The translations under genes and the position numbers were made by a program. Below, in pieces: positions 33,611 to 36,235 of a stretch of 55,924 nt of DNA. Where the stretch lies: assembly GCF_016900375.1 (NCBI RefSeq), contig NZ_JACJKB010000016.1, forward strand, positions 1 to 55,924, written 5' to 3'. How positions within the stretch are numbered: position 1 is the stretch's first letter; each line of letters starts with the position of its first letter. The notes beneath the pieces are model-generated. The model was not told the DNA's origin. It was given only the letters and a program-made list of their open reading frames with translations, and did not search any database. This DNA comes from Collinsella tanakaei (GTDB lineage: Bacteria; Actinomycetota; Coriobacteriia; Coriobacteriales; Coriobacteriaceae).

Positions 33611-34474
33611 TTAGAACGCGGCCTGGACCGAATCGCCGAAGGTGTCGGCGAGGTACTCCTTGAACTCGTCGGTCGTGAGCACGTCGACCAGCGCGGCGAT
33701 GCGCTCGTCGTCCTCGAGGTCGGGCGTCGTCACGATGACGTTGGCGTACTCGTTCTTGATGACGTCGGAGTCGGCGCTCTCCTGCGCCACGGCGTCGGCA
33801 AGGGTCAGGCCCGCATCGATCGCGTAGTTGCCGTTGATGACGGCGAAGTCCACATCGGCAAGCGTGGAGGGCAGCATGGCGGCCTCCTGCTCGAGGATCT
33901 CGATGTTATGCGGGTTGTCCACGATGTCGTTGGGCGTGGCGGTGATACCGGCGTCCTCGGACAGGGTGATGACGCCGTGCTCCTGGAGCAGCAGCAGCGC
34001 ACGGCCCTCGTTGGTGGCGTCGTTGGGCACCGAGATCGTGGCGCCGTCGGCCACGTTGGCCAGGTCGTCGGACTTGCCGGCGAACACGCCCATGGGCTCG
34101 AAGTGGATCTTGCCCACGCTCACGAGGTCGGTGCCGTTCTCCTCGTTGTAGTTGGCCAGGTAGTTGAGGTGCTGGAAGTAGTTGCAGTCGACCTCGCCGG
34201 CGCTCGTGTCCTGGTTGGGCAGGATGTAGTCGGTGTACTCCTTCACCTCGAGGGTGATGCCCTGCTCCTCGAGCTTGGGCGCGGCGAACTCGGAGAGGAT
34301 CTCCGCATGCGGGCTCGGGCTCGCGGCGACCGTAAGGGTGACGGGGGAATCGACCGCAACGGAGCCGGATGCGGAGGTGTCGTTACCGCCGCAGGCGGAA
34401 AGGGAGCCGGCGGCCACGATGCCGGCGGCAGCGGCGATGAACGAACGGCGGGAGATGGTGGAATCAAAGCTCAT
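33611..34474 (-). CDS. metQ: MetQ, methionine ABC transporter substrate-binding lipoprotein
   Basis: 287 aa, NlpA/MetQ family. The signal peptide carries SRRSFIAAAAGIVAAGSLSAC with the lipobox cysteine at 28; the twin arginines suggest Tat export before lipidation. The mature part has the family segments SPHAEILSEF, YTDYILPNQ and VDCNYFQHLNYL. It should capture methionine (D- or L-) outside the membrane and pass it to MetI. The start at 34474 has AAAGG eight bases upstream and avoids a 25-residue extension. It is the third gene of metN-metI-metQ. Confidence 0.93.
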   Translation of the reverse strand: MSFDSTISRRSFIAAAAGIVAAGSLSACGGNDTSASGSVAVDSPVTLTVAASPSPHAEILSEFAAPKLEEQGITLEVKEYTDYILPNQDTSAGEVDCNYFQHLNYLANYNEENGTDLVSVGKIHFEPMGVFAGKSDDLANVADGATISVPNDATNEGRALLLLQEHGVITLSEDAGITATPNDIVDNPHNIEILEQEAAMLPSTLADVDFAVINGNYAIDAGLTLADAVAQESADSDVIKNEYANVIVTTPDLEDDERIAALVDVLTTDEFKEYLADTFGDSVQAAF

Positions 34475-34595
34475 GATGAAAGCCTTTCTTACGAAGCGAT
34501 GGAGATTGAGATTACGGTACAGCAGCGGCACGCAGAGGGCAGCTGCCAATCGAAAACGTTACGAACGGTGCGCAGCCAGGCGCCCGGCCCGAACC

Positions 34596-35277
34596 TTACG
34601 CGTCGCGTGCGCCGCGGTGGTCGACCTTGCGCGCCGCCAGGTCGCAGACGCTCTGGATGACCTGGACGATCACGATCAGGATGATCACGGCCACGATCAT
34701 GACCTCGTCCACGCGGCGGTAGTAGCCGTAACGCACGGCGATATCGCCCAGGCCGCCCGCGCCGATGGCGCCGGCCATGGCGGTGTAGCCCAGAACGGAG
34801 ATGAGCACGACGGCGACGCCGCGGACGATGGAGGGCAGCGCCTCGGGCAGAAGCGCCGAGAAGACGATGCGCGGGACGCTCGCGCCGCAGGCCTCGACTG
34901 CCTCGACGGACTCGCGCGGGACCTCGGCGAGCGACTGCTCGATCATACGCGCGATGAACGGCGACGCGGAGAGCACGAGCGGCGGAATGGTGCCCAAAAT
35001 GCCCGAGCCAGTGCCCATGATGAGGCGTGTGAACGGGATGATGAACACCATGAGGACGATGAACGGGAACGAGCGCAGAATGTTCACGACCCAGCCGAGC
35101 ACGGCGTTGAGCACCGGCATGGGGCGCAGTGAGCCCGGCGAGGTCAGGTAGAGCACCACGCCGAGCGCGATGCCGATGATATAGGAGATGAGCGTGGGCA
35201 CAAGCACCATCACGATGGTGCTGACCGTGCCCTCGGCGAGCAGCTCGCCGTACTCGGCGATGAAGGCGTTCACGGCG

Positions 35278-35285
<8 letters not shown>
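34596..35285 (-). CDS. metI: MetI, methionine ABC transporter permease
   Basis: 229 aa with five or six membrane helices. The EAA loop is seen at about 130-165 (EACGASVPRIVFSALLPEALP), along with the family segment SFPFIVLMVFIIPFTR. It forms the channel with MetN. The ATG at 35285 was preferred over a TTG three codons earlier, because GAAAGGG lies nine bases upstream of the ATG but touches the TTG. It overlaps the end of metN by eight bases, indicating translational coupling. Confidence 0.93.
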
Positions 35286-36027
<742 letters not shown>

Positions 36028-36056
36028 GAGAACACCACCCGATGATTTGGTCTAGG

Positions 36057-36079
36057 AAAAAGGCGGGTCGACTCCCGCC
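36057..36079 (-). terminator. Attenuator terminator in the metNIQ leader
   Basis: On the minus strand GGCGGG-AGTCGA-CCCGCC is followed by TTTTT, a complete intrinsic terminator placed 29 bases before the metN start and 9 bases after the leader peptide stop. Being upstream of the operon it can only work as an attenuator. Confidence 0.85.
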
Positions 36080-36153
36080 GGAGACGACCTAGCGAAGGCG
36101 CCCGGTCTCCCCATGCCCGCGATGATCGCTCGGCATGGCAAAGTGCCCGGGCG
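36067..36153 (-). promoter_or_regulatory. Alternative RNA structures of the metNIQ attenuator
   Basis: Four pairings compete on the minus strand. (1) Antiterminator GTCGtCTCC / GGAGtCGAC, 36088-36067, starting one base after the leader stop codon and using the 5' arm of the terminator. (2) GGAGAC (36110-36105) with GTCTCC (36085-36080), which would hold the antiterminator arm and favour termination. (3) CCATGCC / GGCATGG, 36138-36111, a local hairpin. (4) CGCCCGG (36153-36147) with CCGGGCG (36105-36099), enclosing hairpin 3 and breaking pairing 2. A ribosome at the stop codon would cover the antiterminator arm; one stalled at the Met codons would let pairing 4 and the antiterminator form. This folding was drawn by eye and was not computed. 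Confidence 0.65.
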
Positions 36154-36199
36154 AGGGCATCATCATGACCATCATCATATGTGCGGCAGTCGTAAACAT
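36089..36199 (-). CDS. Methionine-rich leader peptide of metNIQ
   Basis: 36 codons: MFTTAAHMMMVMMMPSPG, then HFAMPSDHRGHGETGRLR and TAG. Seven of the first 14 residues are methionine, six of them in the run HMMMVMMM (codons 8-14, 36178-36158). It ends one base before the antiterminator and 62 bases before metN. This is the layout of amino-acid leader peptides, in which ribosome stalling at codons of the end product senses charged-tRNA supply. There is no clear Shine-Dalgarno; a weak promoter (see 36207-36235) would place the transcript start at or one base before the ATG, so it may be leaderless. Translation is inferred, not shown. The frame is open further upstream, so another start cannot be excluded. 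Confidence 0.7.
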   Translation of the reverse strand: MFTTAAHMMMVMMMPSPGHFAMPSDHRGHGETGRLR

Positions 36200-36206
36200 G
36201 CACTCA

Positions 36207-36235
36207 AGGGTAGCAGGGCACTTTAGCGGATGCAA
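36207..36235 (-). promoter_or_regulatory. Candidate promoter of the metNIQ leader
   Basis: TTGCAT (36235-36230) and TACCCT (36212-36207) are separated by 17 bp on the minus strand. The -10 box is poor apart from its TAnnnT frame. The expected start site falls around 36200-36199, the A of the leader ATG. Confidence 0.35.

Follow-up and report, generated by a model that had tools for sequence, protein, structure and literature searches.

In the Collinsella tanakaei DNA analysed here (the window, 55,924 nucleotides), the genes for a methionine ABC transporter, metNIQ, follow a short methionine-rich reading frame, and comparison with relatives gives good support to its being a leader with regulatory Met codons. 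We consider it fairly likely that this leader is a methionine-responsive, leaderless translational attenuator of metNIQ. The first-pass annotation had drawn attention to a 36-codon frame containing HMMMVMMM ahead of metNIQ, which is indeed present at 36199–36089 on the minus strand; it overlooked the probably leaderless start and the predicted pairing between the leader coding region and the metN ribosome-binding region.

All features of the locus lie on the minus strand. The leader frame (MFTTAAHMMMVMMMPSPGHFAMPSDHRGHGETGRLR followed by its stop), assigned from its sequence and from homologues, runs from an ATG at 36199–36197 to a TAG at 36091–36089, and the run of Met codons read from it (MMMVMMM, 36178–36158) is the proposed sensor. 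Its end is separated by 61 bases from the GTG start of metN at 36027, after which come metN, then metI and metQ. These encode a metN-type ABC transporter ATPase of 249 amino acids (35278–36027; best match TIGR02314, 312.6 bits against a cut-off of 499.7), a metI-type permease (34596–35294; best match NF008049, 189.3 bits against a cut-off of 212) and a metQ-type lipoprotein of the NlpA family (33611–34549; PF03180 at 266.7 bits, above cut-off, with the MetQ model NF008285 best but below cut-off). Among named models the methionine-transporter ones thus score best for all three products, yet under the curated NCBIfam cut-offs. The MetN alignment ends at model position 240 of 343, so that the C-terminal part of the TIGR02314 model is absent; in E. 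coli MetN this part carries the regulatory domain that binds methionine, and regulation of uptake may therefore act through expression alone. Methionine genes are usually under the control of SAM riboswitches, T-boxes or repressors. At Rfam gathering scores nothing matched within the window, the leader thus giving no match to a SAM riboswitch or T-box family, nor was a SAM-I riboswitch (RF00162) detected anywhere in the genome to which the window belongs. The same genome holds two T-box-like matches of 56.5 and 42.2 bits, below the family cut-off.

A search for relatives of MetN returned 78 loci, 62 of which were examined for Met-containing short ORFs no more than 450 bases upstream of metN, the other 16 being left out. 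In 46 of the 48 Coriobacteriia-type loci a short ORF with the motif M-P-[SK]-P-G after Met codons was found within this distance; two of the 48 (L046 and L047) had no such ORF there. Forty-four loci carry 4–6 Met per eight residues before the motif, L044 carries three and L050 two. The 14 loci from other bacteria had no ORF with M-P-[SK]-P-G, only a few unrelated Met-containing frames. Judged from these comparisons, the short ORF before metN is not a product of chance. A covariance model that begins at the last Met codon and extends slightly beyond the second hairpin, built on 40 leaders without near-duplicates, matched 75 of 396 genomes of the class, once per genome and in two families of the same order, under strict filters by which weak matches are lost. 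Within Collinsella this metN (E below 1e-110) occurs in 20 of 43 genomes, and 18 of the 20 match the model; the leader motifs of the remaining two (G035 and G037) are visible in the alignment. In the 23 other Collinsella genomes the best ATPase matches have E values of about 1e-50 to 1e-53; 20 of them have no model match and three are not listed.

The leaders came from 116 places that collapsed to 76 distinct sequences, every one of which has two to six Met within the ten codons that end at the last Met (mean 4.6), the length of the run differing between leaders by whole codons. Divergent leaders retain two or more Met codons together with M-P-x-P-G and the ACCGGGC motif, and in several the remaining peptide is unlike that of the window. 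The 52-leader alignment and 30 later loci were chosen by the motifs CCCGGGCA/ACCGGGCG or ATGCCC..GCCCGG, and the fixity of the motif letters is for that reason partly due to selection; the ORFs at 46 of 48 metN loci were found without these motifs. The initial proposal of a leader peptide with regulatory Met codons is supported by its conservation, and the Met run holds up when the leaders of relatives are aligned. Just downstream of the run (36160–36143, codons M14–H19), the codon after the last Met is CCC in 76 of 76 leaders, the second Pro codon is CCC in 76 and the Gly codon is GGG in 75; the constancy of the CCC after the last Met exceeds what pairing in the first hairpin (P1) needs, and is partly due to motif selection.

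The position of the promoter points to the way in which the leader ORF is translated. A scan blind to the ATG placed a sigma-70-type promoter at 36235–36207, with a −35 element TTGCAT (36235–36230), a 17-nt spacer and an extended −10 element TGcTACCCT (hexamer 36212–36207), and the leader ATG lies 7 nt downstream of the −10 box. A promoter of the form TTGC...TGnTAnnnT stands ahead of most leaders in the alignment. In 67 of the 76 distinct leaders a −10 box, found by a scan blind to the ORF, lies 6–8 nt before an in-frame ATG, and the nearest ATG in any frame falls at that distance in 66 of 76 real sequences compared with 71 of 760 dinucleotide shuffles. As some seven bases between −10 box and ATG leave no room for a Shine-Dalgarno sequence, the leader ORF is most likely translated leaderless, and this promoter position suggests that the transcript probably starts at or beside the ATG. 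A pairing of AAGTGCCC (36221–36214) with GGGCACTT was dropped, since the former falls in the promoter spacer.

Two hairpins follow the Met run. P1 (36153–36099) joins CGCCCGG (36153–36147) to CCGGGCG (36105–36099), a pairing put forward at the outset that is present in the window and conserved in relatives, and includes an inner stem. Six of the seven outer base pairs (GCCCGG/CCGGGC) are identical in 40 of 40 leaders, in part because of how the leaders were selected, and the inner stem covaries, with two-sided changes at six of eight pairs. The second hairpin, P2 (36089–36066, GGTCGTCTCC-GGCG-GGAGTCGACC), begins inside the stop codon and covaries at eight of ten pairs. Taken together, 16 of 28 pairs of P1 and P2 change on both sides, with 71 two-sided cells compared with 21 after shuffling, and 91.0% of cells are paired compared with 85.0% when shuffled and 41–53% when slid. 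The stem GTCGTCTCC/GGAGTCGAC had been placed one base after the stop; a covarying hairpin does follow there, but because the pairing in relatives includes the last G of TAG, P2 abuts the stop codon directly. Compensatory changes were found in the inner stem of P1 and in P2 and not, in its fixed form, in the third stem that had been proposed (P3, below).

The stop codon usually stands at a fixed distance from the second arm of P1, and in several leaders before that arm. Eight of the 76 leaders, which have no P2 loop motif, were left out of the ribosome-position folding and terminator tests, leaving 68. When a ribosome footprint was placed at the stop, predicted P1 dropped to 0.00 in 68 of 68 leaders, and P2 was lost in the 55 leaders of the common arrangement, whose stop lies 12–18 nt after the start of the ACCGGGC motif (mean 0.00), and mostly retained in the other 13 (mean 0.79). 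The masking of the 5′ arm of P2 by a ribosome at the stop codon, as first envisaged, is consequently predicted for the 55 and mostly not for the 13, since the stop codon moves between leaders. The loop of P2 (36079–36076) reads GGC[GA] in 68 of 76 leaders, while its proposed terminator partner varies; the idea that it contacts UGCC at the last Met codon is no more than a suggestion. One relative (L011:2653-2865) has about 20 extra GC-rich bases after P2 that could form a further hairpin, followed by CTTTTC. A pairing of GGAGAC, before CCGGGCG, with GTCTCC of P2 showed no covariation and was rejected.

The leader also has a candidate long-range partner in metN itself. Codons 2–11 (36196–36167) are complementary to a stretch at 36052–36025 that comprises GACCA..TCATC, a Shine-Dalgarno-like GGGTGGTG and the metN GTG start; this pairing, P0, was delimited by duplex and permutation tests. 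When the sequence from the leader to the metN start was folded with the ribosome absent or at the stop, the Shine-Dalgarno core paired mainly with the leader coding region up to the last Met: summed pairing probabilities with this region were 201 free and 187 with a ribosome at the stop, compared with 8 when the A site holds the first Met codon and 79 when it holds the last, and the mean unpaired probability of the core was 0.24, 0.25, 0.40 and 0.32 in the same order. In the window, the metN site is predicted to cost 14.5 kcal/mol to open when no ribosome is present and 14.6 kcal/mol with one at the stop; a ribosome whose A site holds the first Met codon lowers this to 8.1 kcal/mol, the middle one to 9.3 and the last to 10.9. 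The permutation, half-arm and arm-shuffle tests used cluster representatives, 45, 34, 27 or 18 of the 76 leaders. Own P0 arms paired better than permuted ones at each of these sizes (z of −6.0, −5.0, −4.5 and −4.3, respectively), and three control segments gave z of −1.1, −0.8 and 0.2. The Met-run half of the leader arm carried a signal with positions −32 to −15 of metN (z −4.0; −3.3 with 18 representatives), and the 5′ half gave a weaker one with Shine-Dalgarno and start combined (z −2.1; −2.2 with 18 representatives; p about 0.015 before correction for 24 tests). The crossed halves gave none (z 0.0 and 1.2; 0.6 and 0.1 with 18 representatives), so that the signals are ordered as one antiparallel helix would require. 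These comparisons suggest co-evolution between the Met run and the sequence that immediately precedes the metN Shine-Dalgarno and, more weakly, between the codons before the run and the Shine-Dalgarno and start.

Other results speak against P0. In the 46 leaders of 76 that could be aligned, its two helices are conserved (82.6% and 91.5% of cells paired) and showed no covariation. No signal was seen for the whole leader arm with the Shine-Dalgarno plus start (z −0.6 and −0.7), and the Met run showed no co-evolution with the Shine-Dalgarno proper (z 1.2 and 0.1). Apart from P0, a search for one pairing common to all leaders, between the A or B motif and some downstream sequence, came up empty (mean z −0.42 and −0.35). 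Across the family, the mean effect of a first-Met stall on opening the site was small, about 1.2 kcal/mol. Opening cost over 1 kcal/mol more in the stop state than in this stall in 33 of the 76 leaders and over 1 kcal/mol less in nine; for a middle-Met stall the counts were 33 and 15. Real leader arms gained only marginally over codon-shuffled arms (Wilcoxon p 0.058 and 0.052) and were no better than arms swapped in from other leaders (1.46 versus 1.44 kcal/mol, p 0.56). RNAalifold favours a different long-range register, with the leader arm adding only 2.4 kcal/mol. The strength of the P0 duplex reached p ≤ 0.05 against shuffles in 27 of 76 leaders, and 57 of the 76 have a paired Shine-Dalgarno core. 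A single ribosome standing on a Met codon would cover on average 86% of the P0 pairs, and might cover as little as 35% in one leader (L153). In view of these weak energy, covariation and consensus results, we rate closure of the metN ribosome-binding region by P0, as predicted by folding, as no more than probable.

Met content and pairing are partly separate. The last Met codon is 100% conserved and codon −2 is Met in 88%, with 9% and 23% of their bases in P0, respectively, and 242 of the 351 Met codons are unpaired in P0. In two leaders, L044 and L153, P0 pairs mainly through other codons, and the Met codons lie just downstream. Since the last Met and codon −2 are conserved yet rarely in P0, and in view of these two leaders, the Met codons and P0 pairing both seem to be selected.

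The attenuator that we favour would operate as follows. Transcription would begin at or next to the leader ATG, as the promoter implies, and ribosomes would load on the leaderless 5′ end. With ample charged Met-tRNA, a ribosome would pass the Met codons and reach the stop; the first ~14 codons of the leader would then be free to pair with the upstream stretch, Shine-Dalgarno and start of metN, with P1 and P2 sitting between the two arms of P0, and metN would be translated poorly. With Met-tRNA scarce, the ribosome would halt on the Met run and cover the leader arm, P0 would be blocked and metNIQ translated. If the sensor codons themselves form part of the P0 strand, one ribosome stalled for Met-tRNA would be both sensor and unmasker. 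The model draws on comparison of sequences for the conserved Met codons, the promoter position, the covariation of P1 and P2 and the co-evolution of the P0 arms; from it we infer ribosome stalling, the direction of the response and metN translation as the step that changes.

A classical transcription attenuator, the arrangement first proposed for this leader, would use the same codons differently: a ribosome at the stop would block P2, allowing P3 and a U-tract to terminate transcription, and a stall on Met would let P1 and P2 form and give read-through. The window does contain such a structure (36079–36057), with GGCGGG (36079–36074) and CCCGCC (36067–36062) followed by TTTTT (36061–36057), and in the 55 leaders of the common arrangement predicted P3 rises as P2 is lost, with a mean of 0.64 for a ribosome at the stop compared with 0.33 for a first-Met stall, a response also predicted for L156, one of the other 13. 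Against this, in those 13 of 68 leaders taken together, first-Met stall and stop left mean P3 (0.16 and 0.16) and P2 (0.77 to 0.79) unchanged, and in the window itself P3 does not track the position of the ribosome, being 0.24 free, 0.42 at the first Met, 0.26 at the last Met and 0.35 at the stop. The 3′ arm of P3 hardly exceeds shuffled arms (−11.1 versus −10.0 kcal/mol; p ≤ 0.1 in 13 of 68 leaders), a U-tract (at least five U among the following eight bases) follows in only six of 68, the window included, and P3 in fixed form showed no covariation, though 88.3% of its cells pair compared with 38–66% when slid. The terminator described initially is therefore present in the window but not conserved, and control through terminator and antiterminator finds little backing in these tests. 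We regard a transcription attenuator as unlikely, although it is the strongest competitor of the translational model. By comparison of the leaders, an intrinsic terminator is not the conserved read-out; it may add to control in the window and in some relatives.

Two further explanations concern what the leader senses, and we think each quite improbable. The nascent peptide might arrest the ribosome at M-P-x-P-G in response to methionine or SAM itself, not Met-tRNA. Such arrest would account for the retention of Met-Pro-x-Pro-Gly where the Met run shrinks to two, and for codons fixed as CCC, CCC and GGG in 76, 76 and 75 of 76 leaders, but much of this conservation fits the pairing of GCCCGG in P1 and part comes from collecting leaders by motif; a Met run whose length varies by whole codons is more readily explained by codon sensing than by an arrest peptide of fixed sequence. 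Alternatively, the AUG repeats might serve solely as antisense to the metN site, with the switch sensing general translation of the leader and not methionine. The Met run does pair with a TCATC-type sequence upstream of the Shine-Dalgarno; against an antisense role alone stand the roughly two-thirds of Met codons outside P0, the two leaders noted above that pair mainly through other codons, and the identity of the controlled gene, metNIQ. The translational attenuator read by Met-tRNA remains our preferred reading.

Precedents exist for several parts of this attenuator. Canestrari et al. (2020) reportedly found that stalled ribosomes on mycobacterial poly-cysteine short ORFs unmask the binding site of the next gene. 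In M. smegmatis, leaderless short ORFs carrying an unbroken row of Cys codons control the translation of downstream genes by ribosome speed, according to the part of the report available (PMC9031893); these resemble the present leaders in being leaderless short ORFs with a codon run governing downstream translation, but use Cys, whereas the leaders described here use Met, have two covarying hairpins and occur in other bacteria. A comparative study of Actinobacteria described, in the sections accessible, a LEU element upstream of leuA in which a run of Leu codons is proposed to pair with the leuA Shine-Dalgarno, and reported there no conserved RNA structure before methionine operons (Seliverstov 2005, PMC1262725). 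The element resembles P0 in the proposed pairing of a leader-peptide codon run with the Shine-Dalgarno of the gene under control; compared by its description, it differs in having Leu and not Met and in being described as a pseudoknot with a base stem.

Met leader peptides have themselves been proposed, contrary to the view of the first-pass annotation that no Met-codon attenuator was described. In S. lividans a leaderless Met leader peptide, metL, is proposed upstream of metNIQ, again with an unclear terminator, although its peptide ends in GARCMCRRMCAF and has few Met together with Cys, as given in the available text (PMC8079986). Our phylum search for MetN (TIGR02314, E ≤ 1e-100) found it in six of 149 genomes, and in two of the six a metL-type leader is present. 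These two (L183 and L184), both in large genomes, have leaders of the form MTTTS.RTLATEA...GARCMCRM.AF upstream of metN, resembling S. lividans metL in their mixed Cys and Met codons, and do not have the M-P-x-P-G motif of the Coriobacteriia leaders. Proposed Met-codon leader peptides are likewise found in C. jejuni, where the accessible parts of two reports describe MetL upstream of metBA (PMC3847290) and CJsORF19, MMYQMR, before a D-Met transport gene (PMC11955535), and the start of MetL has been seen by translation-initiation-site profiling (PMC3847290/PMC11955535). The proposed read-out of MetL is, unlike ours, transcriptional, and the available text places it only in C. jejuni, C. coli and C. 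doylei (PMC3847290). A screen for premature terminators names neither metN nor Collinsella in its available part (PMC2965389), and the literature searched, leader peptides of Collinsella included, yielded no description of this element, in a search that subscription journals largely lay outside. Met-codon leader peptides as such having already been proposed in Campylobacter and Streptomyces, the Coriobacteriia element is a variant. There is about an even chance that it constitutes a class of methionine-sensing RNA switch not described before, occurring in two families of one Coriobacteriia order and characterized by a leaderless poly-Met leader, no conserved terminator or known riboswitch, and sensor codons in the strand that closes the metN ribosome-binding region.

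The leader provides short, precise sequences for direct tests of stalling and of site unmasking. If the attenuator is as we propose, methionine would join cysteine and leucine among the amino acids with leaderless codon-run attenuators, and a Met-codon switch that reads the supply of Met-tRNA would show how these gut bacteria sense methionine.
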